A stretch of 64,000 bases of DNA from a virus. The number at the start of each line of letters is the position of its first letter. Position 1 is the first letter of the stretch. The notes beneath the pieces are model-generated. The model saw only the letters and a list, made by a program, of their open reading frames with translations, ran no database searches and was not told the DNA's origin. The DNA lies in the IMG/VR virus record IMGVR_UViG_3300007735_000883, positions 1 through 64,000 of that record; one strand, given 5' to 3'. The position numbers and the translations under genes are program-made. Positions 10,958-40,410 of the stretch are shown piece by piece.

Positions 10958-11686
10958 ATGGGAACAACAATTTTATTTCCTGGAGACACAGACGCTAACG
11001 AAATACCAGTATTTCTTAATTTTCATTGGGGAGATTATAGCAAATACAATTCCGACAGAACTACCGATAAAATTATCGGGAAGGGTAATGTCATATCTGT
11101 TCCGTATCCCAGTAAATTCAATGTGATGAATGATGTTCCGTACACCAACAGTGCCAGCATATCTGGTGGTCCTTTAGACAATTTAAAGATGGCGTTTGAT
11201 AACATCACATTTAATCTAGAAAAGGGGCTAAACTACTTTTTTGGAGGCGGTAGTAGTTTTACGTATGATAATATGGAATCGGTTTTAACGCCAGGTGCAC
11301 GCCGAGTATACGACGTTACTATAGATTTAGTAGCAAAGTCATTGATACAGTCTACCAACACAAAAACAATAGTAGACACGTTTCAAAAAAATGCTTTTTC
11401 TTCTTGGTCTGGTGGAAATCGGTTATTGTGGAAGCATCCTCCACTTTGGGTTATAACAGCTAGTACTACTGCATCGGGTAGTGGAACCGCTCCTGGCTGG
11501 GATCCTGTGGGTCTCCCGTGTGTTTTAAGAAAAGTTCAAATAAACAGAAATCCTGTATTAGATATTCCGTTTAATTTACCTAATAACCATCCACTGGCAG
11601 TACGTTTAGATCTTACGTTTGTTGAGCTAGAGCCTGCAGTTAATACTACAGCAGGACTCAAGAACCGAGCTTGGACGTTTACTTAA
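10958..11686 (+). CDS. 48: Baseplate tail-tube cap, gp48-like
   Basis: The 242-residue protein ends with LPCVLRKVQINRNPVLDI and PLAVRLDLTFVELEPAV. This is the pattern of tube-associated baseplate proteins in which a conserved strand pair (v.i...p......P..v.l.L.f.E) closes the domain. A Gly-rich helix region (FFGGGSSFTYDNM) sits in the middle. In T4, gp48 caps the baseplate and starts the tail tube with gp54. The place just before gp53 agrees with related marine phages. The divergent promoter region is only 31 nt; TTAAATA lies upstream at 10932-10938. Confidence 0.7.
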   Translation: MGTTILFPGDTDANEIPVFLNFHWGDYSKYNSDRTTDKIIGKGNVISVPYPSKFNVMNDVPYTNSASISGGPLDNLKMAFDNITFNLEKGLNYFFGGGSSFTYDNMESVLTPGARRVYDVTIDLVAKSLIQSTNTKTIVDTFQKNAFSSWSGGNRLLWKHPPLWVITASTTASGSGTAPGWDPVGLPCVLRKVQINRNPVLDIPFNLPNNHPLAVRLDLTFVELEPAVNTTAGLKNRAWTFT

Positions 11687-11705: not shown

Positions 11706-12176
11706 ATGAGATTAACAAGTCCGTTTAGTACACAATTAAATCTTGGTGGTTCAACCACAGATAATATTAAATCGGTTTATTCATTTAAAGACACATTTTT
11801 ATACAGTTCTCCAGCAACTTTGGCTGGTGTGTCGATATCTGCGTTGAATAATTTGTCTGCTGGACTTACTTTTTTTGCAAAAGCAATGCGTGAACACCAT
11901 AAGCAAAAAATGTTAAATTTTATAGATGGTTTTTTTGGTCCAAGTGGTCCCGGATACAATTACGGAGGACTCACATCAGATTCATATGAAAATTTAAATT
12001 TAAATACTTTAGGTTCTCAAACATCAAATATGGAATTGACCACATTTAGAGCAATTTATAGATCATTAACGGATGGAATTACAAGTTCAGCAGAACATTT
12101 TCGTACTCTGTTTAACAGCAGAAATACTTATGTACCAAATGGTTCTCAATCAACAATACCAATACAAATAATATAA
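11706..12176 (+). CDS. Unknown baseplate-region protein (156 aa)
   Basis: No family is recognised. Visible features are a Ser/Thr/Asn-rich sequence, a helix-like stretch SALNNLSAGLTFFAKAMREHHKQK, a Gly/Pro loop (FFGPSGPGYNYGG), and a conserved-looking end (LFNSRNTYVPNGSQS). There is no Cys, signal peptide or membrane segment. It lies 3 nt before the gp53 N-terminal ORF and 19 nt after gp48, within the baseplate operon, so a baseplate-associated role is likely by position only. Confidence 0.55.
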   Translation: MRLTSPFSTQLNLGGSTTDNIKSVYSFKDTFLYSSPATLAGVSISALNNLSAGLTFFAKAMREHHKQKMLNFIDGFFGPSGPGYNYGGLTSDSYENLNLNTLGSQTSNMELTTFRAIYRSLTDGITSSAEHFRTLFNSRNTYVPNGSQSTIPIQII

Positions 12177-12179
12177 TAT

Positions 12180-15100
12180 ATGTTTGAAAACTTTTCTAAA
12201 ATTAATTATTATTTAAACGGTCAAACTTTAGAATTGACTGATATTTTTAAATCTATAAAAATAGACACAACCAATACTTCTGCTGTCAGTACAACAACAA
12301 ATACTAATCAATCACGACCGGATCAACTAGCAAAAAAATTATACGATGATCCTAAATTATTTTGGATTAATTTTGCAATAAACGGTATTAAAAATCCATT
12401 TAGAGAATGGAATCAATCTAGCACATCTTTAGTTGAACAAAATTCTGAAGATTATGATACTAAAGTATTTCAATTTGGTAATACTAGCAAATATTTACCA
12501 ACTGTTGAAACCTATTTTAATCCAGAACAGATTGATTCTTATTCTGGAATTTCTTTGGCCAATATTCAACAGGACGATGTTATTATATTTGAAACCGGTT
12601 CAGGAGTATTTGAATTAAAAACATACGGTGCAGGCCAAATCGAAGCACTAAATTCCTGCGGCTATCCTCATTTTGGCCAAACCGATATTCCTGATAATTT
12701 TTTAAACAGAAATAATATTATACAGATATCTTGTGGTAAAAATTTTACAGCATGTTTGGACGACACCGGATATATCTGGGCGTGGGGTCAGGATATAGGA
12801 CTGGAATCTAGTGGATTTATTGTTAATGGTAGGCTGTACAATTCACCACGTGGTGGTTATAAACATATTGATACCACACATAATAAAATTATTGCCGTTA
12901 CTTATAATGGAGGATTAGAGTGTTTTGGTACGTGTGGTGATTTTACGTATACTAGTGAAACCAGTGTTGCTAAAAGTGCGTGGATGGGCGGACTAACGTT
13001 GGCAGGCGTAGTTATTAAAACAGACAATACCGTAACTCCTTTAGGGCCTATTGTTTCTACCAATCCTACTCTTCAATATTGTTCTGATGTTTCTTGTGCT
13101 GACGATTATTGTTTAGGCGTAGTAACTGGTCCTGTCTCAAACGGAACTGTTATTGGATTTGGTTCTACTGGTTATTTTTCTCAGATAGGCCAAAACACAT
13201 TTTATTCTAAAGAACTTACCAAATTAGGTTCTGTTTCTACAACAAATCCGGTTTATCCGTTTACAGACAACAATAATAAAATAATAAAAGATTACGAAAA
13301 TGGCGTATTAGAAGTATCAATAAAAGATCTACAGCCGTTTACATCTCCAAGCGGAAATTCAGATGAAGGATATAGAGCGTATTATAATCAAGTGTACGCA
13401 TCACAAGATGAAAATAAAATATTAATAGGTATCACTGATTTTGACACGTACAGCAAAGAAGGATATATTATAAACAATCCCAAAACATTTGCTGGTGCTG
13501 GGTATGAACCATATGCTTCTAACACTTACGATTATACACAATCATATGATAAAAATTTAAAACCAAATAGAAATTATAATTTATTTAAAGATTCTATTAG
13601 AAAATTTCCTGGAATCACTTCATTAACTGGTATAAATTTTTATCCAACAGCTGTTCCAGTATTAACCGGACCATTTAGATGGACTGTACTTCCTTCATTT
13701 AAATTTAATTATCTAAATGACAGTAGTTCTTATTTTAGTTCTTCAATAAATTATCGTAATTTATTTGGAATATCGTTTGTAAATCAAATCGGAACAGATA
13801 TGTTTACTGATAACCTTGGTTTAAATACAAACTATTCAAACAGCGGAATAACAGCAATTACTAATATTATAGATGGTGTAGGTCATTATATCGAAATAAC
13901 TAATGACAAAAAAATAAAAATATATACAAAATATTCGGTTATTGACGGTACAGAAAGTGATTATTCTCCCAGTAGGAGATACGTTAATGTTGCATCGTAT
14001 AGAGATCAACCATCAGGTTTAACTGTTGATTTTCATAGTGATTATTTTGAAACATCTTTTGGTTCAATTGATTATTGGGGAGAAAACACGTCTCGTGGTT
14101 TGTGGGTTTTAAAAGACAATGGTGTTCCTTATCTTATTCGTCCCGCAGAAGATCATATAAAAATACTAGCAGAACTAGAGCCAGAAACATGGGGATATGC
14201 GTATAACTTTAAACAAGACTGCCTTCCGCCCCCAGGTACTACTTTCAAAAAAATAGACTTTGCTTCTTGCTCTGCATTTTGGGCGGCTGGTTTAAAAAAT
14301 AACGGCGAAATTATGATATGGGGAGTAACATCGGATTTAAATTGGTTGATGGGAATAACAAATCCACCATACACAATTCCCGGAATTACAGCAAAAGACA
14401 TAACAATAAATGGCGATAATATTGTTGGTATAAGAAATAATGGCACAATTTTTACGTTTGGTGGAACCACATTTGATGCGTTACACACATTTAATAATTT
14501 TTATGGAGGTGTAACAGTAACTAATGCGGTTAAAGTGGTTGGACCAAGCTTGAAACAGTATCTTGACCCCATGACTGTTTTAACGTCAGATAATAAACTT
14601 ATTCATATGTTTCCGGATGCTAATTATTTTGGCCTGGAAACAAATTTATGGAAAGCGTTTTTGGGAATTACTCTAGGTGGATTTGAATTAAAATACAATA
14701 AACCTATATCAGAACATCTAGATGATGTGTTCCGTGTTGAAAAATTAAATATTTCTTATATTTTAAATGCAGATACACAAATAAAAGATATTTCAGGAAA
14801 CTCTCATAATCTTATAATAACAAAATTAGATGATACCAAAATATTCACACAGCACGATCCTTCTGGAGTCTTTGGTACCATTCAATCGTGGTATGCTAGT
14901 GGAATAAAATTGCATACAGCCTTATACGGTCTGGATGTTAGTAAATATAAGAGAACAAAAGGAGAATATTGGCTAGACAATTATTTCTTAAATAAAGATA
15001 CCGGTCATAAAGTTTTAATTAATGTTTTTGATATAAATTCTATAAATAATAAAACTGGTTATTCATCCGTACAAAATAGAAATGAATATCCGGTATTAGG

Positions 15101-16121
15101 TTTGGGTGTGTACAATGATATATTTACAGCTAATACTGAATTGAATGCAAATTCAAATAACGGAATTCGCAGAATATCGCTTGAAGCAGAATGGAATCCT
15201 AATTTTTGGGCTACAAATGTAGACTATTTTTCACAAATTGATAATGTTATAAATGGAGGATATACTCTTTCCGATTATATCACAACACAGTATGGTGTAC
15301 TTTGGTTGTACGAAACATACTCTAAACAAAAAAAACCACTTATAATACATACTCCAAATTTAAATTATGGTTATCTTTCTGAATCAACACTGCAAACAAA
15401 TAAAATAATTTTAGGTAATGGATTCATAATTAATTTACATCCCAATAATAAATTAACATTTATATCTGGCGATAAACAACCATATAATATTGTGAAAGAT
15501 TTTTCAAATCTTTCAACACTTTATACAGTTGATTTTAATAATGAGGACGATTTTAAGTTTTGGGAAAACAGTATTGTTGAAAAAATAGCTATAGGAACAA
15601 ATAGATTTTATACGTATAAACCAAGATATGTTGAAAATTCTGTTAATTATTGGGGATCTAAGGGAGAAAATATAGAACCTAAAGGATTAACCTACACACA
15701 AATAGATTGTTTTAGTACACACTGTTGTGGTATACGTCTAGACGGTAAAATTGAATGCTGGGGTTCAGATGATTCTGGTATCTGGGTGGAAATGCCCGAT
15801 GGAACGGTTTTAAGTGGAGGATTAGCAGTTCCGCCTTCGCTGGGAGTTTGTAACAAAGTTTCTGTTGGTTATGACCACAGCTGTGCAGAAGACGTATCGG
15901 GAAATATAGTTTGTTGGGGTAATAATAATTACGGCCAAGTTACTGTTCCTTCGTATATAAACGATGGAACACCAAATCAAATTTTAGACTGTAGTAAATA
16001 TTTTAGTGCAGTGCAAAAAACTGATGGAAGAATACTGATTTGGGGCAGAGCAATAACGGGCCCAGCAGAAATTATAGATTTAGGAAATTCTGTGCCCACA
16101 GAATTAACATTAGAGAGCTAA
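12180..16121 (+). CDS. 53: gp53-type baseplate wedge N-terminal domain followed by RCC1-like repeats (1313 aa)
   Basis: Residues 1-110 look like T4 gp53: LELTDIFKSI, then RPDQLAKKLYDDPKLFWINF (47-66) and NPFREW. T4 gp53 is about 196 residues and has RPEELA..IYGNPQLYWV at this place. From about residue 178 the sequence turns into RCC1-type repeats with blades such as IIQISCGKNFTACL... GYIWAWG, FKKIDFASCSAFWAAGL... IMIWG (about 689), YTQIDCFSTHCCGIRL (about 1171) and NKVSVGYDHSCAED (about 1224). Non-propeller stretches lie between, for example 850-1150. The gp53 C-terminal part is missing here and appears at the end of the next ORF. The next start lies 4 nt after the stop, in another frame. Confidence 0.8.
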   Translation: MFENFSKINYYLNGQTLELTDIFKSIKIDTTNTSAVSTTTNTNQSRPDQLAKKLYDDPKLFWINFAINGIKNPFREWNQSSTSLVEQNSEDYDTKVFQFGNTSKYLPTVETYFNPEQIDSYSGISLANIQQDDVIIFETGSGVFELKTYGAGQIEALNSCGYPHFGQTDIPDNFLNRNNIIQISCGKNFTACLDDTGYIWAWGQDIGLESSGFIVNGRLYNSPRGGYKHIDTTHNKIIAVTYNGGLECFGTCGDFTYTSETSVAKSAWMGGLTLAGVVIKTDNTVTPLGPIVSTNPTLQYCSDVSCADDYCLGVVTGPVSNGTVIGFGSTGYFSQIGQNTFYSKELTKLGSVSTTNPVYPFTDNNNKIIKDYENGVLEVSIKDLQPFTSPSGNSDEGYRAYYNQVYASQDENKILIGITDFDTYSKEGYIINNPKTFAGAGYEPYASNTYDYTQSYDKNLKPNRNYNLFKDSIRKFPGITSLTGINFYPTAVPVLTGPFRWTVLPSFKFNYLNDSSSYFSSSINYRNLFGISFVNQIGTDMFTDNLGLNTNYSNSGITAITNIIDGVGHYIEITNDKKIKIYTKYSVIDGTESDYSPSRRYVNVASYRDQPSGLTVDFHSDYFETSFGSIDYWGENTSRGLWVLKDNGVPYLIRPAEDHIKILAELEPETWGYAYNFKQDCLPPPGTTFKKIDFASCSAFWAAGLKNNGEIMIWGVTSDLNWLMGITNPPYTIPGITAKDITINGDNIVGIRNNGTIFTFGGTTFDALHTFNNFYGGVTVTNAVKVVGPSLKQYLDPMTVLTSDNKLIHMFPDANYFGLETNLWKAFLGITLGGFELKYNKPISEHLDDVFRVEKLNISYILNADTQIKDISGNSHNLIITKLDDTKIFTQHDPSGVFGTIQSWYASGIKLHTALYGLDVSKYKRTKGEYWLDNYFLNKDTGHKVLINVFDINSINNKTGYSSVQNRNEYPVLGLGVYNDIFTANTELNANSNNGIRRISLEAEWNPNFWATNVDYFSQIDNVINGGYTLSDYITTQYGVLWLYETYSKQKKPLIIHTPNLNYGYLSESTLQTNKIILGNGFIINLHPNNKLTFISGDKQPYNIVKDFSNLSTLYTVDFNNEDDFKFWENSIVEKIAIGTNRFYTYKPRYVENSVNYWGSKGENIEPKGLTYTQIDCFSTHCCGIRLDGKIECWGSDDSGIWVEMPDGTVLSGGLAVPPSLGVCNKVSVGYDHSCAEDVSGNIVCWGNNNYGQVTVPSYINDGTPNQILDCSKYFSAVQKTDGRILIWGRAITGPAEIIDLGNSVPTELTLES

Positions 16122-16125
16122 TACC

Positions 16126-19100
16126 ATGAGCGGAGTATACAAAGTATCTGTAGGATATAGTCACGGCCTCTTGATAAAAGACGGTAATTTATATGCTTGG
16201 GGTTATAATTATGACGGTCAATTAGGATTAGGAAATCCTGGCTTAACGTATCAACACAATCCAAAATTAGTATCTGGTTCTGGTAATTGGACTGATATTT
16301 CTGCTGGTTACGATCATTCGCTGGGAATATGTGGTGGATATCTGTACTCGTGGGGTAGTAATTATTACGGACAATTAGGTTTAACGTATGTGCACGATGA
16401 TCTTGCGACGCTTGGTTTAAGTGGTTATGGTCATTCTGCTCTGGGAAAATCAGCTGCCAAAGAATATTCACCCCAAAGAATAGGCGGGGGTTCTAATTGG
16501 TCTAAAATATCTGCAGGAAAAGAAATTTCTTTTGCCATAAGAAACGGATATCTTTACGGTTGGGGAAATTCAGGTGGTCCAAATTTTAATGATCGTTTAG
16601 GTGTTCGTTTCTCGGAAGATAATGGTCCATATACAAAGATTAATGTTCTTACTCAGTTTGTTCCTGTTCCTATTAGAGTATCTACTTTAAGTACTTGGTC
16701 TGATATTTCAACAAATTGTGCTAATAATGATAACTCTATCGGAATTGCCGGTGGTAAATTGATGTCTTGGGGGTTGGAAGTGTTAGGAAAATTAGGAAAT
16801 GGTGTTAATGCAACAACTAATAGATCACTAACTAAAATTAACCCTTCTTTGTTGGTATCATATTTAAACAACGAGAATGGGTTTTTTAACTGTTTGTATG
16901 ACCGCTCTTTTACCAATCCGGTTCCAACAAACACAACCTGGTCTGCTGTTTCTGCGGGGCGGTTACACGCACTAGGAATATCTGGCGGCGATCTGTACGC
17001 TTGGGGGAGTAATAATGGTGGTGCTTTGGGCGACGGAACTACTTTAGATAGATATGTTCCAACTTTAATAGATTCTGATCCAACATACGATTGGGTTAAA
17101 GTTTCTGCAGGAGCAAACTACTCTCTAGGTTTGTTAGAACCTGGGGGAGTAGGTTATTATGAACCGTGGGCATGGGGATCCAATTTAAACGGACAGCTAG
17201 GTGACGGAACTCTTAATAGTTCTCCTAGACCTAAACCAATATCAATCACAGAAACATATCAGGATATAAGTGCTGGTTATAATTATGCAGCCGGTATAGA
17301 ATCTTCTTCAGGAACTTACAAAACATACGCGTGGGGATTTGATACATTTAAACCTGTATCGCAAGCTCCAAACGTTTTAACTAATCCTAACGATAAAATA
17401 CCAGCACAATATAAAAGAGCAAACACAAAAGTAAAAAAAATATCTGTTGGGTGGAATGATATTTACATTTTAGATAAAACAGGAAACTTAGATTATATTC
17501 CAATAAATGGAAATGATATAATTAGTCCAGCCGTATTACGAGAATTTAATTATACTTCTTATGGACCAACAAAAATATATCAACCTATAACAGATATAGC
17601 GGCAGGATTTAATACTGCTATAGTATCTAAAGCAGACAATACAATTAATATAGACGCTCGTGGATACAATTCACAGATACCCGTACCATCACCATATTAT
17701 GCACAAACACCGGAATTGGAAAATATAACACAAAGAGCATGGATTAAATTAAACAGAAGAGACACCATTACCGCTGTTTTCTGTGGTGGTAGTAATTACG
17801 CAATAGTGTTTGGTGATGGTACTGTAGAAACTTGGGGTAAATATAAAGACTGGAGTAACTATCAACCAATACACATTAAATGGAAACAGGTAGTTAGTGG
17901 CGGTAACCATATTGTCATATTAAATACAAACAATCAGGTATATTGTTTTGGAGATAATACGTATAGTCAATGTAATGTACCGTCTGGTTTAACTGGAATC
18001 AAATCTGTTTTTGCTACAGCAACAGCTTCTGGAGCATTATTAGAAAACGGAGATGTTGTTTATTGGGGTGCATGGGATCGTTTTGACGGAACAGATCAAT
18101 TAAGTTTATACTCCGTATTACAGACATCATATCCACATACAACCGCTGCTCTTCCACTAAACAGAAAATATAAACATAACCTTATAGGTTACACTTTTGA
18201 TGGAGATTGGGGAGAAACGTTATACAAGAATTCTATAAAAACAAAACTCCAAGAATACTATACCCAAACAGGAAGTTATCCTAAAAAATTAATCCTTAAT
18301 ATACAAGACGGAACAAACAATCCTCTACGGTGGTTTAATGAGCCTGCAACCATTAAATACTTGGGTTTTACTTTAAATGCTTCAGGCATTTCTTCTGCAA
18401 ACGATGGAGTAACGTATCAAAACTTAGTTTCAAACAATTATTCTGTTGCCCCCACACGTTACGAAGATTTTACAAAAGTTTTACAAACAATCACGGATTT
18501 TTATAGTCTCGGTTACACTTTGGCAAAACAAGCAATCTACGAACTGTCCGGCGATAAAAATACAACAGCGGTAGGATTTAATACAGGGCAGCTATTACCT
18601 GATTATACGTTCTTAGGATTTAGTGCCGCCAGCAGTAGCTATACACTAAATTATAAAAACAGTTGGTTAACCGGAAACACTCTTGTTAATTACAAAGAAT
18701 ATTCTAACGATACTGAATGGGCTCCGTATATTATACAAGGACCAGATTCGTATCTGCCTATTTCTGGTTTTGATGTATCAAATAAATCGTATAAACCGTA
18801 TTCTGGTACTACTGCTACCAATAATTATCATGTTAATTCTGTTGGTATTACCAGTGCAGTTTATACTGCGTACTACAACAGATGGAAAGAATTCTTAAAT
18901 AGTGTAGATTTTGATTTTGTTATCGATAATAATATAAGTAAATTTATTCTGCCAGATGAAACGTCTAATACTCCAATACTGTGGGCTAAAACCAAACAAA
19001 TACTAAAAGATTACGAAACAAGTACAGGAACGATACTAAATAAAAACTTACTCACAAATTTTGCCAACTATTCAGATTCTAACATAGGAACAACTCTTGG

Positions 19101-20298
19101 CGTTGTGGATAAAGGTCCCGTTCTTATACAGGGTGCTACGGGTATACGTGTAAATCTGGACCAATTTAAATCTTCTGTCACTACTTCAAAAGCTGCACCG
19201 TACAACTACAATACTGTAATTAATAATTTAAATATTTTTGATCTGGGAATACTGGCAATTCTGGGCTCAACTCTAGAGCAAAGAATTTTAGATCAGTGGT
19301 ATTACTATGGAATACGTGGTGGTACTTTTAATTGGTCTAATAAAACAACCGATCCTGGGTTTACGTATATTGATTGGTCTACCATACAAACAGAACTGGT
19401 AAATGAGACGTATTCTGTATTTGGTTCGTCTAAACCTAATGTTAACAAGTTTGTTAGTTTATTAAATTATTTTAATGCGTTAAATTTATTACCCAATCAA
19501 CAGTTTGATTTTTATAATCTTAAGGATGTAATAAAAATTAAATCCGGTAAAGATCACAGCATACTTTTAAATAAATTAGGTAAACTGTATTTCTTAGGTG
19601 CAACTTCTGATAATAGACAGAATCTGCCAGACGGAGAATACACGGATATTTCTGCAGGCGATCTACACTCTGCTGCAATAAGCACTACTGGTGCTTTATT
19701 TACCGCAGGAAAACTTATAACAGATTCTGGAGGATGTTCCGGTTCTACTCTAACTGTAGACCTTACTCCTATTTCTGGTGTGTTTGATACTGTAGAATCT
19801 GGAGGTAACCATCTAGCACTGTTTGAAACCGGGCAAAATAAAAAATACTACGGAACTGTTGATCGTGTTGACGAGATATTCAAGAGAATATATGTTAAAA
19901 ACTACTCTGCTGCAGACGAAACCAATATATCTTTTGGTGATCCGTCTGGAACAAACGTCACAATAATACGAGACGGAACCGTAATAAAAAATATACAACA
20001 TAAATTATTAAGTATAGACTCATACGTTTACACTGTACAGAATATTATTAATGGTTCTGGTGTTGTGCAAGACGTTTCTGCTAATAATGGAGCTGTTTGG
20101 AAAACGTATTTTATAAATTCATATAAAAATGCAGAAAATAATCCATATTTGGTCACCCCATTTAAAGTACAAATAGAGACTATACAGGCACAAGACATTA
20201 AGTATCTAAATAAAGAGGTATTGTACACATTTGAAAACAAGTTTAAAGACCTAATAAAAACTGAAAATAAAATTGATATAAAAATATCTGACTTATGA
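16126..20298 (+). CDS. RCC1 beta-propeller protein ending in a gp53-like C-terminus (1390 aa)
   Basis: Residues about 5-405 contain seven RCC1-type repeats, e.g. VYKVSVGYSHGLLI... LYAWGYNYDGQLGLG, WTDISAGYDHSLGI and WSAVSAGRLHALGI. Seven is the blade number of RCC1. About eight weaker repeats follow (436-650 and 1136-1237), interrupted by a non-propeller insert at about 655-1135. The last 150 residues (YYGTVDRVDEIFKRIYV ... VQIETIQAQDIKYLNKEV ... FENKFKDLI) resemble the middle and C-terminal part of gp53-type wedges. With the preceding ORF this looks like one gp53 carrying a huge propeller insertion and now encoded in two pieces. The propellers probably face outward at the baseplate; the ligand is unknown. 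Confidence 0.75.
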   Translation: MSGVYKVSVGYSHGLLIKDGNLYAWGYNYDGQLGLGNPGLTYQHNPKLVSGSGNWTDISAGYDHSLGICGGYLYSWGSNYYGQLGLTYVHDDLATLGLSGYGHSALGKSAAKEYSPQRIGGGSNWSKISAGKEISFAIRNGYLYGWGNSGGPNFNDRLGVRFSEDNGPYTKINVLTQFVPVPIRVSTLSTWSDISTNCANNDNSIGIAGGKLMSWGLEVLGKLGNGVNATTNRSLTKINPSLLVSYLNNENGFFNCLYDRSFTNPVPTNTTWSAVSAGRLHALGISGGDLYAWGSNNGGALGDGTTLDRYVPTLIDSDPTYDWVKVSAGANYSLGLLEPGGVGYYEPWAWGSNLNGQLGDGTLNSSPRPKPISITETYQDISAGYNYAAGIESSSGTYKTYAWGFDTFKPVSQAPNVLTNPNDKIPAQYKRANTKVKKISVGWNDIYILDKTGNLDYIPINGNDIISPAVLREFNYTSYGPTKIYQPITDIAAGFNTAIVSKADNTINIDARGYNSQIPVPSPYYAQTPELENITQRAWIKLNRRDTITAVFCGGSNYAIVFGDGTVETWGKYKDWSNYQPIHIKWKQVVSGGNHIVILNTNNQVYCFGDNTYSQCNVPSGLTGIKSVFATATASGALLENGDVVYWGAWDRFDGTDQLSLYSVLQTSYPHTTAALPLNRKYKHNLIGYTFDGDWGETLYKNSIKTKLQEYYTQTGSYPKKLILNIQDGTNNPLRWFNEPATIKYLGFTLNASGISSANDGVTYQNLVSNNYSVAPTRYEDFTKVLQTITDFYSLGYTLAKQAIYELSGDKNTTAVGFNTGQLLPDYTFLGFSAASSSYTLNYKNSWLTGNTLVNYKEYSNDTEWAPYIIQGPDSYLPISGFDVSNKSYKPYSGTTATNNYHVNSVGITSAVYTAYYNRWKEFLNSVDFDFVIDNNISKFILPDETSNTPILWAKTKQILKDYETSTGTILNKNLLTNFANYSDSNIGTTLGVVDKGPVLIQGATGIRVNLDQFKSSVTTSKAAPYNYNTVINNLNIFDLGILAILGSTLEQRILDQWYYYGIRGGTFNWSNKTTDPGFTYIDWSTIQTELVNETYSVFGSSKPNVNKFVSLLNYFNALNLLPNQQFDFYNLKDVIKIKSGKDHSILLNKLGKLYFLGATSDNRQNLPDGEYTDISAGDLHSAAISTTGALFTAGKLITDSGGCSGSTLTVDLTPISGVFDTVESGGNHLALFETGQNKKYYGTVDRVDEIFKRIYVKNYSAADETNISFGDPSGTNVTIIRDGTVIKNIQHKLLSIDSYVYTVQNIINGSGVVQDVSANNGAVWKTYFINSYKNAENNPYLVTPFKVQIETIQAQDIKYLNKEVLYTFENKFKDLIKTENKIDIKISDL

Positions 20299-26415: not shown

Positions 26416-27780
26416 ATGTCTAACAAATTTTCATTAACAGCATTAAACATACCCAAAGAACTGTTTTTAGTAACTGGAGGAATTTCTGGTGGAGCTAAAA
26501 CAGAATGGGAGCCACTCTCCGATTCATTTTTTGCTAAACGTATACCTGAAACCCAAAAACATTATATTGCGCCCATAAACACCTGGCAAACACGAATAAA
26601 GTATAACAGATACGTGTCGGTAGATAATTACACTACAGTTTACAATGAAGACAACCAAACGGTTTATCTGTGCCTTCACAATCACCCAGACTTTAGAGAC
26701 GATTTAGAGCCTGGTCTATCTGTTCAACAGCCATCACATTCGTCTGGGCGACAAACATATGAAGACGGATATACTTGGTTGCCCCTCTTTAAGGTAGATT
26801 TTACCGAATGGGAATTTATTGCTCCAGGAGAAATTCCTGTTCCAAAAATAGAAACGGAAACGGACTACACAACATTTTCACAAAAATATGAGCCATTATG
26901 TGGTCCTAAAGGAGTTACTTCATTTGGTTGTTGTTGTTTATACTTTAAAGAAAATAGTGTGGACGAAGTTACCGGAGAAGTTTATACTGCAGGTGACGTA
27001 ACAAATGAAAGTATTTTTTCTGATTGTTATGAATGCCAAAAACTAGCAGAAGCTTTAGACAGAGACGTTACGTTTTTAAGTGGAACTTTGCCTAGTGGAA
27101 TTACTTTAACTCACCCATTAGAAAATCCGTTATGCCCAGCAACAAAAACAATTAAAACGTTAAAAGAACAATTACAAGAACAACAGTACACTATTGTTCC
27201 CGGTTCTAGTAAAGAATATCAATTATTTTTACTAAACAATCATAACAACAAAGGAATAATGGCAGTAGGAATTGATCTAGACGGCCTAACCGACGCACAA
27301 AAAACAATCAGTGTAGACAATCCTGTTTTAAATGTTGCAGATCCTTCAGGGTCTGGCGCAACCGTTAAAATAAAAACTAATCCTATAGGCTTAAGTAGTC
27401 ATTTTATATACGGTATAGAACTGGTAACAGAAGGATCTGAATACGGCGAACTTCCGGTCGTGAATAACATTTCTAATGTTATTAGTTCTGTGGTTCAAGA
27501 CAGAATAACACTAATACCGTATGATTCTGAAATATACACTAATCCACAAACTTACGCCAAACCAAATAAACTAAAAGCGTCAATAACCGTAACAAACAAT
27601 GAAGTGGCATCCCTTGTTCCTGCTGCAGTACAACACACTAAAATTGCAGTAATGACGGATCCTAAATTTTTAAGTACTTCTGCTTTAGCAGAATATACAA
27701 AAAACGATAGCAGCACTCAAAGACTGCCAACGATAGTAACACTATACAAACCGTCAACCAAGGTTGATGTTGGAGCATAA
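26416..27780 (+). CDS. Baseplate wedge protein, gp8-like (454 aa)
   Basis: The pattern VYLCLHNHPD ... QPSHSSGRQTYEDGYTWLPLFKVD (about 95-135) is typical of gp8-type wedge proteins, where a v.y.c..n strand is followed by S..P and a DGY.W..ly motif. A Cys-rich segment follows (FGCCCLYF, DCYECQK), which T4 gp8 lacks. T4 gp8 is 334 residues, so the protein is enlarged. It lies 6 nt after the gp7-like gene. gp8 dimers connect the wedge arms in T4. Moderately confident. Confidence 0.65.
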   Translation: MSNKFSLTALNIPKELFLVTGGISGGAKTEWEPLSDSFFAKRIPETQKHYIAPINTWQTRIKYNRYVSVDNYTTVYNEDNQTVYLCLHNHPDFRDDLEPGLSVQQPSHSSGRQTYEDGYTWLPLFKVDFTEWEFIAPGEIPVPKIETETDYTTFSQKYEPLCGPKGVTSFGCCCLYFKENSVDEVTGEVYTAGDVTNESIFSDCYECQKLAEALDRDVTFLSGTLPSGITLTHPLENPLCPATKTIKTLKEQLQEQQYTIVPGSSKEYQLFLLNNHNNKGIMAVGIDLDGLTDAQKTISVDNPVLNVADPSGSGATVKIKTNPIGLSSHFIYGIELVTEGSEYGELPVVNNISNVISSVVQDRITLIPYDSEIYTNPQTYAKPNKLKASITVTNNEVASLVPAAVQHTKIAVMTDPKFLSTSALAEYTKNDSSTQRLPTIVTLYKPSTKVDVGA

Positions 27781-27792
27781 ACGGAGTAAAAA

Positions 27793-28191
27793 ATGGAAGA
27801 TCTAGGTTTAGGAAACGACACTGCTTTTTTTCAAATAGGATCACGAGCATTTGTGGTCGATACGAGTGCGAATCAGGTTGGTTATTTTGCGGATTCCATA
27901 GCAGCAGTTACCGGTGTCGGTGGATACGTTTGGCTAAACTCATCAAAAACACAGAAAGCTATAGGATGGGATTTGTATGTAAATGACGAGCCAGATTCGT
28001 ACACAACAGGAAAGATTGTTGAATTTGCAGGTGCTACCTACACGGTAGGACCAATACAAAAGCCAACATTAGACGTAAAATCTGCAAAATTCTTTAATGT
28101 TACTGATATATCGTCAACCCCTCTAGCAGGAACTACCAGCGCAAACACGACTAGAGGAACTGTTTTTAATATATCCATAAACTTATTATAA
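27793..28191 (+). CDS. Small baseplate-region structural protein (132 aa, unknown)
   Basis: No family is recognised. The sequence is Gly/Ala/Thr-rich and strand-like (FFQIGSRAFVVDTSANQVGYF, GGYVWLNSSKTQKAIGWDLYV, TTRGTVFNISINLL) with no Cys or helices, as in small virion decoration or wedge-cap proteins. The ribosome site GGAG is 8 nt upstream, 12 nt after gp8. A late-promoter motif for the next gene overlaps its stop codon. Position suggests a baseplate or fibre-attachment part. Confidence 0.5.
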   Translation: MEDLGLGNDTAFFQIGSRAFVVDTSANQVGYFADSIAAVTGVGGYVWLNSSKTQKAIGWDLYVNDEPDSYTTGKIVEFAGATYTVGPIQKPTLDVKSAKFFNVTDISSTPLAGTTSANTTRGTVFNISINLL

Positions 28192-28194
28192 ATA
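28187..28194 (+). promoter_or_regulatory. T4 late promoter (TATAAATA) overlapping a stop codon
   Basis: An exact TATAAATA ends 7 nt before the ATG at 28202. It overlaps the TAA of the preceding gene. Only A-rich sequence lies between, with no ribosome site. Confidence 0.5.
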
Positions 28195-28201
28195 ATAAAA
28201 A

Positions 28202-28885
28202 ATGACCATTCCTTCTCCATTTACATCCGATTTTCCGTTAAGACCTACTCCGTTTCGTAGTCGTGTAGAGCAACAGTTAGACTACAATAAAAATTATTAT
28301 GCTGTTGCGTTTAAACCAGGGTTTCCACTACAAGCTTCAGAGTTAAACGAAATACAAGAGATATTTTATGTTCAAAATACTTTGGACAAAAAATTACCAA
28401 GTGGGGGATGGACCGGTCCCGTTCCCTGGTCCGGAGCAACTCCTATGAATTGGAGTATGATTACAATGAATCTAACAGGCCCAGTTACTGTTGGAGCGGG
28501 ATGGTACCATATAATGGACACCCAAATTAACGGTGGAGTAGGAGTCTGGGTTTACAACGAGACTGCTCGCACCTTAACACCGTCCCACACAGAAAGTAGT
28601 TCTAGTTCTCCAGAATACGGATTAAAAGTAAAACCAGTAACTGTAGAATGTTCTAGGTCATCAACGCCCGGAACAAATGAAGATCCTAATTTGCAAGACC
28701 AGTCTAACTTTAATGTTATTGGTGGCCCGTGCGGAGCAGCACGTTTACAGCTACAAGTTACAGGAGTTGGCTCTACAGCTCCTGCAGGAGAATACGTTAT
28801 ACCGATGTTTACTGGTCCGTTTACTCGTGGCCCAGAAATTAGAGAAATTGTATTCAAAAATAACGATACCAAGCAACAAGTATAA
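28202..28885 (+). CDS. Baseplate/fibre connector with DUF4815-like N-terminus (227 aa)
   Basis: The N-terminal segment YNKNYYAVAFKPGFPLQASELNEIQEIFYVQN is the recurring y..y..v.F.PG...qa.Eln.lQ signature seen at the N-termini of phage baseplate-attached proteins (DUF4815-like). It is followed by a Trp/Gly/Pro-rich part (GGWTGPVPWSGATPMNW) and a strand-rich C-terminus. It sits between gp8 and the long fibre genes, where T4 has gp9-gp10, so a role anchoring fibres to the baseplate is likely. No ribosome site; see the overlapping late promoter. Confidence 0.55.
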   Translation: MTIPSPFTSDFPLRPTPFRSRVEQQLDYNKNYYAVAFKPGFPLQASELNEIQEIFYVQNTLDKKLPSGGWTGPVPWSGATPMNWSMITMNLTGPVTVGAGWYHIMDTQINGGVGVWVYNETARTLTPSHTESSSSSPEYGLKVKPVTVECSRSSTPGTNEDPNLQDQSNFNVIGGPCGAARLQLQVTGVGSTAPAGEYVIPMFTGPFTRGPEIREIVFKNNDTKQQV

Positions 28886-28896
28886 AGTAAAACGAT

Positions 28897-31311
28897 ATGC
28901 CCATAACACCACTAACAAATACAGATACTTTTCAAACTTGGTTTACCACAACCAACAGTGTTATTTCTGCAGTGAACGGGATGACTGTTTACAACATTTT
29001 ACCCGGTGACGGCATCAGTCTGACAAGCAGTGCTGGTGTATTTACAATTAAACACGGCTCATCTGTAGGAACTCCTGTTACATTTACCGGCCCGGTTTCG
29101 TTTACAAACACGGTTTCGTTCAGTTCTAATCCGTCAATTAATGCGGTAACTGTTTCTGTATCTCCTAAATTAACCGGTATCACAATAGGTAATGTGGTGC
29201 GTGTAACAGACAGTGGATTAACTTTATCTAAAGCAGATTCAGCAGAAAATGCAGAAGTTTTGGGTATAGTTGTGGGTGGTGATGCCACATCACACACGGT
29301 TGCCACATCAGGTTTAGTAAACAACTCCACATTTGCTAATACTATTAGTAATCTGTTGGGAGTAGCTGGCGGCACACTGTCCCTGGGATGTGCGTACTTT
29401 TTACGTGCAGACGTTGGTGGTGGAATCACTACTGTAGAACCAAATACATACGGACAAGTATCTAAACCAGTGCTGTTGGGTGTTACCGGTTCTGTCGGTG
29501 CCATACTTCCGTATCGTGGTATCATGATTGACGGCATTAGTGCTGGTATAACTGCAGAGCTAGACAATAAAATTATTATACAGGTAGAATACGGATACAG
29601 TTATAATGGTCCTGCCAGTGATTATTTTGCTCCCTTAAATAAGGGAGACGTTTTAGTATATGTTGGTGCCTCTACAGATATAGATTGGATGGGTCTATTA
29701 AATTTATCTGTAGGTGCCATAAAACTACTAGGAAAACTTGCAGGAGATGTTACGATTGATAATAGACCAAACGTTCTTGTTACACAGTATCCCGACCCTC
29801 AATTTACTGCATCGCCTGCTATGGTTTTAGGAATTGTTTCTGAGATTTTAAACGATACTGGTTCTGTTTTAACACTAGAAATCACAACTAGAGGTGGTGC
29901 GTTCACAGTAAAAAAATCAGAACTAGATCCCAACTATTACGATTTTACTAATACAATATCACCGTATAATACTATTAAGGGAGGAATATTTAAATATAAT
30001 ACAGATTTAAACAAATATGCTTCTTCTAGTGTTTCAATTCCTAAAACTTTGTTCGCTAATTTAATCTCACATAATGATGCCGAAGAAACGCTTACTTTTA
30101 TTTATCAAGGCACCGAATATTCTACCGAAGGTGGATCAGTAAGTCCATTTACTTCTCCTATGGGGTTTATTAGTACTAGTGGTGTAACCGGAGACATAGA
30201 ATACGATAATCTGATACCTAACGGATCGTTTACTATCTGGCAACGAGGATACACTCCATTTAATGGTGTAACTTTAGGCGATTTATCGTCTTCAAACACT
30301 CCAGTATGTGACCGTTGGTTTTATATGAACGATAAAAACGGAAACATATCGGGACTAACTTTGTATATTGAACGACACGATTTTGATACGTATCAGACAA
30401 CAGTTCCAGGTTCTCCTCGTTACTGGATAGACTTAAAACAAAACTACTCCAGTGTTACCGGTCTAAACTACAGACCTCGTTTTGAAAATATTCAGAGAAG
30501 TGCTCGTTTACTACAAGGCCAACAAGCAACGTTAAGTTTCTGGGCTCTCGCTGGCGTGTGTGGTGCAACAATGGATCTGATATACAACAGGTATCCTGAA
30601 TCTGAATATTACATTACAGTAAATGACGTTAGCGATGCGTTAGCGGCCAGAGAAACTATTGCAAGTGGAATAGAAATAAGTTCCGCGTGGAGCAAATACT
30701 CGTATACGTTTACTACCACACCAGAAAGCGTGTTAACCGATTCTGCAGATGAAGGTTGGTATGGAATAGGATTTGAGTTCCCATCATCAGGCGTAACTAT
30801 GAGTATAGCTCAAGTTCAATTAGAATTAGGACCAACGACCACAGAAATTGTGTACTCTTTACCCCAAAAAGAACTTGATCGTTGTTCTCCGTACTATCTC
30901 CGAACATACGATTGGGATCAATCAACAGGATTTACGGGAACATCGCAGTTAAACGAAGAATACGTAACTTTAGGTAATCTTCAATCACAAGACATATACG
31001 ATATTAAATTTCCGTTGGAAATGGTTGATACTCCAACAGTAACTTTATACTCTCCAACAGGTATGGCAAACGAGGCGTATAACGTAACCAAGAAAGCAGA
31101 TATGCGGTATCCTCGTTGTGAGGGGTGTCCCATACACGTAAATCTTCCATGGGATACAACCACGGTAAGAACTTCTCTGTCGTCTGGAAATATAACAGTA
31201 CCAAACACCAGTAAAAACGGAATGCAAATAAAAATTAATAATGGAGCTACGCATCTAGACACGCTTAAATTCCATTATGTAGCAGATGCAGACATTAAAT
31301 TAGAAGTATAA
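28897..31311 (+). CDS. Tail fibre/baseplate fibre protein (804 aa)
   Basis: The N-terminus (PLTNTDTFQTWFTTTNSVISAVNGM) has the LT..dTF..W...tN.ii..lN pattern of phage fibre trimers, as in gp10/gp12-like proteins of marine T4-like phages. The shaft has beta-repeat sequence (TFTGPVSFTNTVSFSS). The C-terminal third contains a receptor-type domain starting LIPNGSFTIWQRG ... CDRWFY (about 445-475), typical of carbohydrate-binding-like tips of phage fibres, and ends in a strand-rich region. Probably a short or side fibre. The ligand is unknown. Confidence 0.7.
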   Translation: MPITPLTNTDTFQTWFTTTNSVISAVNGMTVYNILPGDGISLTSSAGVFTIKHGSSVGTPVTFTGPVSFTNTVSFSSNPSINAVTVSVSPKLTGITIGNVVRVTDSGLTLSKADSAENAEVLGIVVGGDATSHTVATSGLVNNSTFANTISNLLGVAGGTLSLGCAYFLRADVGGGITTVEPNTYGQVSKPVLLGVTGSVGAILPYRGIMIDGISAGITAELDNKIIIQVEYGYSYNGPASDYFAPLNKGDVLVYVGASTDIDWMGLLNLSVGAIKLLGKLAGDVTIDNRPNVLVTQYPDPQFTASPAMVLGIVSEILNDTGSVLTLEITTRGGAFTVKKSELDPNYYDFTNTISPYNTIKGGIFKYNTDLNKYASSSVSIPKTLFANLISHNDAEETLTFIYQGTEYSTEGGSVSPFTSPMGFISTSGVTGDIEYDNLIPNGSFTIWQRGYTPFNGVTLGDLSSSNTPVCDRWFYMNDKNGNISGLTLYIERHDFDTYQTTVPGSPRYWIDLKQNYSSVTGLNYRPRFENIQRSARLLQGQQATLSFWALAGVCGATMDLIYNRYPESEYYITVNDVSDALAARETIASGIEISSAWSKYSYTFTTTPESVLTDSADEGWYGIGFEFPSSGVTMSIAQVQLELGPTTTEIVYSLPQKELDRCSPYYLRTYDWDQSTGFTGTSQLNEEYVTLGNLQSQDIYDIKFPLEMVDTPTVTLYSPTGMANEAYNVTKKADMRYPRCEGCPIHVNLPWDTTTVRTSLSSGNITVPNTSKNGMQIKINNGATHLDTLKFHYVADADIKLEV

Positions 31312-31324
31312 AGGAACATTATAA

Positions 31325-32428
31325 ATGCCTTCTTGCCGATCCAGTAGCAACCAAAACACACGCGTATTTGCACCTCACGTTATTTTTCAACAAGACACTA
31401 CGCGTCTGGCAATAACTCTTACTAGTGGTCAGGGGTATACTTTAGAAGGAATAACTGCTGGTGACGTTATTCGCTACGATCCTATAAACGGAAGTTATAA
31501 AAAGTCTTTAGCAAACACAGAAATAAACGCAGAAGTTTTAGGTGTTGTTGAAAGCGGTATAACTGCGCCGTATACTGTTGTTATATACGGGTCGATTAAA
31601 TATCCACAAAGTCGTTTAAATCAGATCGTGAGTGGTGCGGATGGTGGAATAGACGTTTTATTTTTAGACGATCAAGTAAGTGGTGGTCTAACAGGAAGTA
31701 TAGATTTAACAACAGGAGTAAAGATAGTTAAACCTGTTATGCAGGTTGCTCCACACGGAGTATATAATGGTGTTGTAACAAATTATATTGGTTATAAAAC
31801 CGGTAGTGCGCCTTCATCGGGGCCTGGGTTTGCACCACCCGATGGTGGAATTATTATGGGACCTAAAGGTTTAGACAACGAATACTGGTTAGATTTATCA
31901 TTAGATCAAACAATATCTGCCAGCGATTATCCTACAGTTTATCAGACATATGGAACCGATTACGGTCCGTATCAAGAACTGGTGACTGTTAGTAGTGGTA
32001 CAGTTACTAGTGGTCTAATCGGAAAACAAGCGTATCAACTGATTAATAATATAAAAAATTATGTGGGAGTTGTAACTGCTGTAGACATTATAGGAACAAT
32101 TACCGTAGAGAAGGCTTCAGGAACACAATTATACGATACATCAAAAACTTTATACGTTGATAAAACTCCTTTTGGCATTTCTAGTACCTCTGTTTCTTCG
32201 TTCTTTGTACCAAAAGTAAATATAAACGCAGAACAAAACGGAGAAACACTTACAGCGTATTTAAAGCTGTTTGATGATCCCAGAACAGTAACAATACCAA
32301 ACGAATTATCGGTCAACCAATTAACAGCGGAATCTACTTTAACTGTAAATGGTGTAGATGTTGGTGCTAAATTAGCGGAACTGGAAGTAAAAATAAATCT
32401 ACTGAACGCCAGGGTTAGTGCATTCTAA
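31325..32428 (+). CDS. Fibre protein with C-terminal coiled coil (367 aa)
   Basis: Strand-rich and low in Cys. The segment GITAGDVIRYDPINGSYKKS with NAEVLGVVESG resembles part of the preceding fibre protein (GITIGNVVRVTDSG ... NAEVLGIVVGG), so the two share a shaft domain. A Gly/Pro loop (SAPSSGPGFAPPDGG, about 160) precedes the second domain. The C-terminus (TVNGVDVGAKLAELEVKINLLNARV) is a short coiled coil that could trimerise. Its stop overlaps the next start. Structural fibre subunit by composition and position. Confidence 0.6.
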   Translation: MPSCRSSSNQNTRVFAPHVIFQQDTTRLAITLTSGQGYTLEGITAGDVIRYDPINGSYKKSLANTEINAEVLGVVESGITAPYTVVIYGSIKYPQSRLNQIVSGADGGIDVLFLDDQVSGGLTGSIDLTTGVKIVKPVMQVAPHGVYNGVVTNYIGYKTGSAPSSGPGFAPPDGGIIMGPKGLDNEYWLDLSLDQTISASDYPTVYQTYGTDYGPYQELVTVSSGTVTSGLIGKQAYQLINNIKNYVGVVTAVDIIGTITVEKASGTQLYDTSKTLYVDKTPFGISSTSVSSFFVPKVNINAEQNGETLTAYLKLFDDPRTVTIPNELSVNQLTAESTLTVNGVDVGAKLAELEVKINLLNARVSAF

Positions 32429-35217
32429 TGAATATTGTAGGATTTAGTTCTGTTAAACAACTAGGCAATGCTAGTATTAGTATTGGTAATACTGGCCCTA
32501 CTGGTCCTATAGGCAATACTGGCCCCATAGGATTAGGTTTAACAGGAAATACCGGATCGGGTATTGTTGGAATAACTTTAATTGATCGTTATTTAGTTAC
32601 TGCGTTTTCTAATGGAACTACGTATTCAACACCGAATAAAATATACGGAGCTACTGGCGGATTTACTTACATAGTAGATTTTTTAAATGCCGGTTCTGGT
32701 ATTTCTATAGGTTATGGAATTACCGGTTCTAATGGGTTGATTTTACGACCAATACGTATAGTAAATAATACAGCCAATAATTTATCTGTAACTTCTACAT
32801 CTAGTGACGTGACCGTAAATCTGGCTACTGTAGGTGGTGCTGGGGTTACGCTTGTTCCTAACTCTACTTTTACTGACGCGTATCTTTTAAAATTTAAAAA
32901 TAAAAAATTAAAAAGAATTGCGGCCACTAAAGGAGTAACTTCTGGAGCATCTTCATATTATGGTTTAGATTTTATAAATTCAAATTTATTTGAAAGAGTA
33001 CGTGGAATGGGTTGGACTGGTTCTACTGGTTCAGTTAATTGTGTTATTTCTGGTGTCGGTGTTACATGTGATATTGATCCGTTTGAAAAAGAATATGATG
33101 AATTAATGTACGGATTGACTTCTAAAATATTTGTTGGTGATTTTAATGGCCGAACTGCTAGTATCAATATTGCTACATGCCCAACAGACGGAAACGCTTA
33201 CGGTTTTGAAATGTACATTCAGAACGCAAAAAACCCAATAAATTTAAATAATAGATTTACGTCTACAAGCCCCATAAAATGGCCATTAAACAGAACTCCG
33301 TGTTTTAGTTCTGATGGGGCAACTTGCGATATCAGAGTATCTTTTTTTGGTATTCAAGGAATTTGGTATGCTACCGCAAAACATATTGGTGTAAATTCTG
33401 TATGTAATGATGAAGGACTATTTTATAGAACTTGTACATCTTCAGAAGGATTTGATGTTTTTATACCGGATCAACCACAAATTATAGGAGCATGCTGTAA
33501 ACCTGATGGTACTTGTACAGAAACTAGTGCAACAATTTGTACTGGTTATTTTCATGGAATAGGAACTACATGTGGTTCTGTTTATAATTCTATATGCAAT
33601 AAACCTGGTGCGTGTTGTGTGGTTCCTCCGGGACAACTAAATTTTTGTTTTGAATTAACATCTAGTGAATGTTTGGGTATATCTTTTTCGCATTTTGCAG
33701 GAAACAGCACTAATTGTTCTGGAGTAAATTGTGGCCAAATTACTGAAAGACTAGGAGCTTGTTGTGACGGTTTAGGTGGCTGTTCTCAAACCACAAAAAC
33801 TGATTGTGTTAATAATTCTGGTTATTTTCAAGGAGTAGGGTCTGAATGTGTTAGTAAATATACTGGGTTATCCATATGTTCTGGTGGAACTGGTCCGTGT
33901 TGTATAAATGGTGTGTGTTCCACTAATTCTGGTTCAGAATGTCTTGCAAATAATGGCTATTATCTGGGAACTGGAAGAAGCTGTTTTGAATTTGTTTGTC
34001 CTGCTTCAGTTTCTTGTCTTGGCTATGTAAACGGAATTCCTGTCCGTAGTGGTCAAGAATATGGTGGTGGTATAATTGTTGGTAGATTTGAACCAGGAAA
34101 AAGTAAAATATTAGGAGCAAGCAGTCTATTTAATCCCACAAATATTGATACTATAGGTGGCACTACAGTATTTGATTGTGAATTTTATACTTCATTTTTA
34201 GACCATACAGCATACGGCATAACAAAAGATTGTGGATTTAATAATGAAGCGTATATTATTATAGTGTACCCAGAAGATGTTGTTATAAATGGAAACAAAA
34301 CATTTTTATGGGGAATTACAGGTTCTTCTTGGGGTCCGTTGTTAGACAGTGGAGGAAATTATTCTGATTTTAGTTTATTATCAGATCCCTCTGATCCCAA
34401 TTCAACACCTATACAGTATTACGATACTCATTTACGTTATAGCGAAGGATTTTGGTCTACACAATCCACCGAACCTTTACAAAATTTAATTGTAAAAACA
34501 TTTCCAACTTGCTCTAGTTCTGTTGTGTATGGTAATGGTGGTGTTGCCAGAGTATTTTCTAAATCACCATATGGACTTCACGGATCCTGGCATCATTCTT
34601 GGGGCTTGTATAATACAGTAAGAGCAATATCAGCAAACAATACGTATGTAAAAAATGTATCATTAGCTGGTGTATTTAAGTTTAATGAATTTGAATACAC
34701 TAGTGGTTATAACGCATTTAAAGCTGTAAGAACCATACCGGACGGACTAACTTCTCCGGTTCAAGGAATTACAGCAAATTCTGCCAGTTTATCTGGTTGG
34801 TATCTACCAAGTCATGACGAACTTGCGTTTATTGCATCTAGCACTGCTAACATGTACGGATTTAATATTAACACCCATTTGATGACTGTTTATGATGGTG
34901 AACCACTAAATGGAATTTATTGGTCTTCAACAGGAACTTTTGATTACGATAAAGACGAAGGCGTTTACGATACCACTACACCAAATCAAAAACCAAAACC
35001 AGGTTCTGTAGCAATTGCTATGGACATGGATGTAAATGGTAGTTCTTATAAAGCATATAAATCAGAAAGAACCAAAAAATATAAAGTTAGACCTATTCGT
35101 ATGTTGCGTTGCGATGCAACCATACCACAAAATAGATACTTATGGTTGATTCCTAGTGTATACGAATCAAAAATAAATCAAAGAAATATTGATACACTTA
35201 ATATAGAAGCAATATGA
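32428..35217 (+). CDS. Collagen-like, Cys-repeat adhesin with DUF1566-like C-terminus (929 aa)
   Basis: Domains in order: N-terminal tag ISIGNTGPTGP and a short collagen-like Gly-X-Thr stalk (about 20-45); beta-rich body (50-350); four disulfide-type repeats (about 354-530), each G-x-CC-x(2-4)-G-x-C-x(5-8)-C-x(n)-GxGxxC, e.g. GACCKPDGTCTETSATIC; and a C-terminal domain from about 540 starting GGGIIVGRF with GWYLPSHDELAFIA, YWSSTG and KVRPIRML. These are the hallmarks of DUF1566/Lcl-type domains with a C-type-lectin-like fold. It probably binds a host surface target at the distal end. The next gene overlaps by 4 nt. Confidence 0.7.
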   Translation: MNIVGFSSVKQLGNASISIGNTGPTGPIGNTGPIGLGLTGNTGSGIVGITLIDRYLVTAFSNGTTYSTPNKIYGATGGFTYIVDFLNAGSGISIGYGITGSNGLILRPIRIVNNTANNLSVTSTSSDVTVNLATVGGAGVTLVPNSTFTDAYLLKFKNKKLKRIAATKGVTSGASSYYGLDFINSNLFERVRGMGWTGSTGSVNCVISGVGVTCDIDPFEKEYDELMYGLTSKIFVGDFNGRTASINIATCPTDGNAYGFEMYIQNAKNPINLNNRFTSTSPIKWPLNRTPCFSSDGATCDIRVSFFGIQGIWYATAKHIGVNSVCNDEGLFYRTCTSSEGFDVFIPDQPQIIGACCKPDGTCTETSATICTGYFHGIGTTCGSVYNSICNKPGACCVVPPGQLNFCFELTSSECLGISFSHFAGNSTNCSGVNCGQITERLGACCDGLGGCSQTTKTDCVNNSGYFQGVGSECVSKYTGLSICSGGTGPCCINGVCSTNSGSECLANNGYYLGTGRSCFEFVCPASVSCLGYVNGIPVRSGQEYGGGIIVGRFEPGKSKILGASSLFNPTNIDTIGGTTVFDCEFYTSFLDHTAYGITKDCGFNNEAYIIIVYPEDVVINGNKTFLWGITGSSWGPLLDSGGNYSDFSLLSDPSDPNSTPIQYYDTHLRYSEGFWSTQSTEPLQNLIVKTFPTCSSSVVYGNGGVARVFSKSPYGLHGSWHHSWGLYNTVRAISANNTYVKNVSLAGVFKFNEFEYTSGYNAFKAVRTIPDGLTSPVQGITANSASLSGWYLPSHDELAFIASSTANMYGFNINTHLMTVYDGEPLNGIYWSSTGTFDYDKDEGVYDTTTPNQKPKPGSVAIAMDMDVNGSSYKAYKSERTKKYKVRPIRMLRCDATIPQNRYLWLIPSVYESKINQRNIDTLNIEAI

Positions 35218-36314: not shown

Positions 36315-36319
36315 TACTA

Positions 36320-36327
36320 AATAAATA
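36320..36327 (+). promoter_or_regulatory. Late-promoter-like AATAAATA
   Basis: AATAAATA, followed by TAATT, ends 5 nt before the ATG at 36333. One base differs from the T4 late consensus; no ribosome site lies between. Confidence 0.4.
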
Positions 36328-36332
36328 TAATT

Positions 36333-40409: not shown

Positions 40410-40410
40410 T

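Follow-up and report, generated by a model that had tools for sequence, protein, structure and literature searches.

The adjacent open reading frames at positions 12,180 to 20,298 of the window (the whole 64,000-nucleotide stretch of DNA that was analysed, from IMG/VR virus record IMGVR_UViG_3300007735_000883) probably encode one baseplate protein, a gp53 that carries an inserted RCC1-type beta-propeller and is divided over two polypeptides, ORF A and ORF B, which would associate on the baseplate wedge. The probability assigned to this account as a whole is roughly 0.7. An earlier note had proposed a domain insertion later divided into two proteins, and this is strongly supported by single-ORF homologues on 22 virus contigs and by a profile of these proteins that divides exactly over ORF A and ORF B.

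Locus and Gene Order

The closest named phages, as judged by the major capsid protein, are Synechococcus T4-like phages with about 53% identity. The genes of the locus are as follows.

10958..11686, plus strand: gp48-like baseplate tail-tube cap (phrog_230, E 4.6e-8)
11706..12176, plus strand: small gene, 156 aa, with a conserved FFGP(S/T)GPGYNYG motif and homologues in contigs L001 and L005
12180-16121, plus strand: ORF A, 1313 aa
16126-20298, plus strand: ORF B, 1390 aa
20295..22292, plus strand: gp5-position tail protein, the downstream neighbour of gp53 (phrog_350, 6.9e-11)

The coordinates, lengths, differing frames, and 4-nt gap reported earlier for the two ORFs were all reproduced from the sequence. 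The locus occupies the normal gp53 slot of T4-like phages, with the gp48-like gene upstream and the gp5-position tail protein downstream, and in the window gp25 and gp6 come after the gp5-position gene. gp48 is the usual upstream neighbour of gp53, and the same gp48-gp53 order is found in IME-SM1, S-MbCM100, and others. Homology and position identify this locus as the gene 53 of a phage of the T4-like kind. Alternatively, the pair could be a gp53 paralogue specialised for host contact, with the ordinary gp53 encoded in the unsequenced part of the genome, since the window record has 66 kb and is probably less than half of a T4-like genome. This is very improbable, however, as the pair sits in the normal gp53 slot from gp48 to gp5 and the 153,850-bp relative L046 features a propeller-bearing gp53 only. 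A separate full gp53 elsewhere in the genome, which the earlier note had named as evidence against its own proposal, was found neither in the 66-kb record nor in its relatives; the 16 related records, all partial or of unknown completeness, hold at most one gp53 each, and a second gp53 is unlikely.

The small 156-aa gene adjoins ORF A upstream in all three genomes with a divided gene 53. All 11 single-ORF genomes compared lack it and have gp48 directly next to gp53. The three genomes form one clade, so this counts as one event and the link of the gene with the split is suggestive only; its product is possibly a partner or chaperone of the ORF A protein. Downstream of the baseplate genes, at 26416-41691 of the window, lies a series of long ORFs, the largest with 1,358 aa; several have no Pfam match and no or a weak PHROG match, and the series probably consists of fibre or adhesin genes.

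The gp53 Core of ORF A

12180..12509, plus strand: gp53 body (conserved core), ORF A residues 1-110, from PF11246, hhalign, and PDB gp53 chains

The gp53-like domain that had been placed at the start of the first ORF is borne out. Pfam family PF11246 matches ORF A residues 2-92 with 33.3 bits, above its cut-off of 21, and reaches 37.5 bits when the genome is searched, phrog_232 matches ORF A with 1.3e-13, and hhalign of residues 1-110 with known gp53s gives a probability of 98.7 and an E of 3e-16. Solved gp53 chains match residues 2-93, 9f4a with 3e-11 and T4 gp53 (5hx2) with 1e-10, and the T4 length of about 196 residues given in the earlier note agrees with a 196-residue chain in the PDB. 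Residues 1-110 can be assigned to gp53 with high confidence in the homology.

A LysM domain is present in T4 gp53 (PMC10966104, PMC10811340). The protein shares the upper baseplate dome with gp6 and gp25, and its binding triggers the joining of six wedges (PMC3004832). The conserved gp53 equivalent features a LysM fold, has about 50 residues in Milano, and serves as glue between adjacent wedges (PMC10811340). The AlphaFold model of L007, a single-ORF relative, features a strand-helix-helix at residues 36-67; its N-terminal pLDDT is only 41-66. The core is the only part of gp53 that is detectably similar to other gp53s and it lies wholly in ORF A. Of the earlier description of gp53 as split in two, it holds that the protein is divided over two ORFs, whereas the conserved core is intact in ORF A and the cut lies inside the propeller.

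Single-ORF Relatives

The earlier note had proposed a check for single-ORF versions in related contigs. When IMG/VR was scanned with the C-terminal domain and the gp53 body, they turned up on 22 virus contigs as proteins of about 585-619 aa that consist of a gp53 body, a propeller of about 330 residues, and the same C-terminal domain as ORF B. The scan with the gp53 body also returned 22 propeller-less gp53s of about 87-357 aa, where the minimum is an alignment-derived ORF length that may be incomplete. The propeller-bearing gp53s form one group in the tree, separate from the propeller-less proteins (100/99; only 131 columns and several long branches). The fusion of gp53 and propeller is absent from the named phages (50,697 records), among which the queries L007, L042, and L040 match only the gp53 part or the RCC1 part, and the literature searched contained no description of a gp53 with RCC1 repeats. 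The propeller-bearing gp53s make up a new family.

The T4 gp53/baseplate wedge 4 ("glue") family (PF11246, PHROG 232) and the window protein are alike in the N-terminal ~100 residues, in being single copy, and in the gp48-gp53-gp5 order. The known gp53s compared have about 167-357 aa and no propeller, whereas the new family features an inserted seven-blade propeller, and the window lineage differs further by about 2,100 additional residues and the gene break. Three of the propeller-less gp53s (L084, L085, and L087, about 300-360 aa) have other inserts behind the gp53 body, which suggests that the site after the body tolerates insertions generally. A Foldseek search of viral models yielded RCC1 proteins that include some from uncultured Caudovirales, about 630-660 aa long, which may belong to the propeller-bearing gp53 family. 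Single ORFs of about 3,650-4,820 aa with RCC1 repeats were also seen on four viral contigs (L009, L012, L013, and L014); no gp53 body was found in them.

The Propeller and the Giant Insert

The RCC1 repeats noted earlier at the end of the first ORF and the start of the second are present, strongly so in ORF B. Pfam RCC1_2 matches ORF A with 58.6 bits, above the cut-off, and ORF B is matched by WD40_RLD (311 bits), RCC1 (144.7), and RCC1_2 (112.5). RCC1-type sequence is recognisable at about residues 165-337, 676-776, and 1151-1300 of ORF A and at residues 1-660 and 1131-1240 of ORF B. The estimate of about 2500 residues of RCC1-type propeller is overstated: 2,443 residues separate the two ends, but RCC1-type sequence accounts for only about half of them.

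The AlphaFold model of L007 (585 aa, pLDDT 75, about 80-95 in the propeller) is a closed seven-blade ring, and in the PDB it is matched by Foldseek to BLIP-II (1jtd, 3qi0; 9e-16) and to human RCC1 (about 1e-13 to 1e-14). A profile of 11 single-ORF proteins with 600 positions divides between the two ORFs. Profile positions 1-334 correspond to ORF A residues 1-337 (E 1.9e-119) without overlap with the ORF B part, and positions 335-600 correspond to ORF B residues 1131-1390 (E 2.3e-75; 4e-82 for ORF B of L005), so that nothing is lost or duplicated. Mapped on the L007 model, this division lies in the loop that connects blade 4 (305-333) to blade 5 (349-372). ORF A residues 338-1313 and ORF B residues 1-1130, about 2,106 in all, are read with high confidence as an insert between blades 4 and 5.

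12510..13190, plus strand: linker and blades 1-4 of the ancestral seven-blade propeller, ORF A residues 111-337, from the profile and the AlphaFold model of the single-ORF homologue
13191..16118, plus strand: A-side of the giant insert, ORF A residues 338-1313, with RCC1 at about 676-776 and 1151-1300; absent from single-ORF proteins
16126..18105, plus strand: about 12 RCC1 repeats, ORF B residues 1-660, from Pfam and a blade scan
18106..19515, plus strand: domain of no recognised family, ORF B residues 661-1130, well conserved in the split clade
19516..19845, plus strand: blades 5-7 of the ancestral propeller, ORF B residues 1131-1240, from the profile

The repeats of ORF B residues 1-660 are seven clear ones followed by five weaker ones that were read by eye. 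Residues 661-1000 are 77% identical to L001 at the amino acid level, and the conservation of residues 661-1130 in the closest pair is as strong as that of the gp53 body. This domain has no sequence relative in the PDB, where matches are at chance level only, or in PHROGs, and its AlphaFold model has a pLDDT of 29. All segments of ORF A and ORF B are under purifying selection. In the segments shared with the single-ORF family dN is 0.15-0.27 versus a dS of about 0.9 or more, and the fastest parts are ORF A residues 338-680 and 781-1150 with dN of 0.56-0.87; dS is near saturation and the dN/dS ratios are rough.

The sequence comparisons show a history that began when gp53 acquired a seven-blade propeller of the RCC1/BLIP-II type, placed between its conserved N-terminal core and a C-terminal domain in a single ORF of about 600 aa. 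They further show that a single lineage added about 2,106 residues to the blade 4-5 loop and that its gene was cut within this insert between RCC1 repeats, in either order.

The Break Between ORF A and ORF B

16119..16129, plus strand: fission point, with TAA at 16119-16121, TACC, ATG at 16126, and the first ORF B codons, in an inter-blade loop

The same two-gene split is found at the homologous residue in L001 and L005, which come from other datasets, and contig L033 starts inside ORF B. The three split contigs are 69-73% identical in the shared protein and each has its own ATG at the break. In the tree one clade (100/100) unites the three split genomes and is grouped with the single-ORF proteins L007, L037, and L066, and the split very probably arose once among single-ORF relatives. 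A sequencing or assembly error in one long gene would also give such a break, and the single-propeller gp53 of L077 (2322-4191), one of the 22 contigs, does have a propeller ORF that looks broken by a simple indel; its frames overlap and no new start is present, which sets it apart from the tidy split in the window. The recurrence of the split at one residue, with separate start codons in contigs of different datasets, argues against an assembly artefact, and the probability of an error is negligible.

In each of the three split genomes 29 residues lie between the blade motifs that flank the break, while the well-formed linkers in ORF B of the window have 30 and 30, and this spacing is that of an uninterrupted RCC1 array. 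It would be consistent with a joined product, in which programmed frameshifting, an intron, or a split intein yields one gp53 of about 2,700 aa. However, the frame of ORF B relative to ORF A is +1 for the window and L005 and +2 for L001, and a conserved programmed frameshift is thereby ruled out. In the window and L005 the overlap of the open frames is only a few nucleotides, without a slippery site (by eye), the gap is just 2-4 nt, there is no Rfam match at the break, and the RCC1 repeats reach the break directly and leave no space for an intein. A joined product is extremely improbable.

The C-Terminal Domain of ORF B

19846..20298, plus strand: C-terminal domain of the propeller-bearing gp53 family, ORF B residues 1241-1390 and stop, which ends every single-ORF homologue

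This domain is shared by all single-ORF homologues (E 1e-19 to 1e-63). The earlier note had described it as a gp53-like C-terminal part, and this was not borne out. Against 12 known gp53s hhalign gave a probability of 1.2% and an E of 0.044 over the last 39 columns only, and the scores of 18.0-19.8 are comparable to those of 60 control ORFs, which reach 18.6. A canonical gp53 C-terminus was also rejected with an enlarged joint set of 22 gp53s, of which 10 are propeller-less forms from viral contigs, and with three long gp53s alone; none of these comparisons was significant. The alignment of the last 30-40 columns or so with gp53 is co-linear but not significant. A sequence search of the PDB with the domain gave chance-level matches only, and no relative was found among the GTDB genomes searched. 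The domain is family-specific and is not demonstrably within the ancestral gp53 fold.

These results bear on the possibility that ORF A and ORF B stay apart, with A doing the job of gp53 with an open propeller and B being an independent RCC1-type virion or secreted protein derived from the C-terminal half. The conserved core lies wholly within A, no similarity to canonical gp53 is detectable at the C-terminus of B, and free-standing RCC1 proteins are found near tail-fibre genes in S-SRM01 and BUCT-ZZ01, all of which are compatible with separate proteins. Such a separation is unlikely, as one seven-blade propeller is partitioned in exact complement, both remnants are under strong purifying selection, the gene order is fixed in three genomes, and blades 5-7 and the C-terminal domain are undegenerated.

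Proposed Assembly

An association of the two chains is preferred. ORF A without blades 5-7 cannot close the ancestral ring, and blades 5-7 and the C-terminal domain are conserved on ORF B, which makes an A-B heterodimer the likeliest form; co-assembly as one two-chain propeller per wedge is quite probable. Adjacent and probably coupled genes would yield A and B, which would associate by completing the ancestral propeller with four blades from A and three from B. The contiguous RCC1 repeats at the end of A and the start of B probably also join the chains. A holds all of the detectably conserved gp53 sequence and should therefore dock as gp53, and its core would anchor the two chains to the wedge (gp6/gp25/gp7). 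Since that core is complete in A, B could in principle be dispensable for wedge assembly.

The position of gp53 is the inner ring that transmits the baseplate switch, and gp53 is not a known site for receptor-binding domains. In the proposed assembly the baseplate would be surrounded by as many as six large appendages rich in propellers, and the giant insert would project from one side of the ring. The fast-evolving insert would most likely serve as an outward surface that contacts the host or its surface polymers; host contact is proposed from the position and the fast evolution of part of the insert, at an even chance or slightly less. We tentatively suggest that a two-chain 4+3 propeller locks a heterodimer of about 2,700 residues on each inner-ring gp53 site as the base of a variable host-contact organ.

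Comparison with Known Propeller and Baseplate Proteins

The window family is like the RCC1/BLIP-II beta-propellers in its RCC1 repeats above the Pfam cut-off and in the match of its model. It differs in that a baseplate protein hosts the propeller as an insertion and, in the window lineage, two polypeptides share the ring 4+3. The free-standing RCC1 proteins of large phages (PHROG 4219, 7220, and 16766; GAP32 GAP_001 and W70_237-239) likewise have RCC1 repeats, but unlike the window family they are encoded by separate genes without a gp53 fusion. RCC1 proteins were detected in GAP32 and W70 virions by mass spectrometry (PMC5259590, PMC11370258), and according to the authors of the W70 study, similar proteins are suspected of being involved in DNA packaging (PMC11370258). 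ORF B matches phrog_4219, the family of the W70 RCC1 proteins. Fusions of BW4 are also known, in which the small LysM-fold gp53 equivalent is joined to other baseplate proteins (Milano gp25 and SPO1-like A511 gp102; PMC10811340). These differ from the window protein in being fused to baseplate components, without a propeller insertion, and in being unsplit.

Implications

The family forms a readable series from a gp53 without a propeller, to one propeller in one gene, to a split giant, which bears on the route from an internal structural protein to a viral surface organ. The split clade is a natural test of whether two chains can hold a propeller together. If the account is true, gp53, normally a small internal glue protein, would become the base of a variable host-contact organ.
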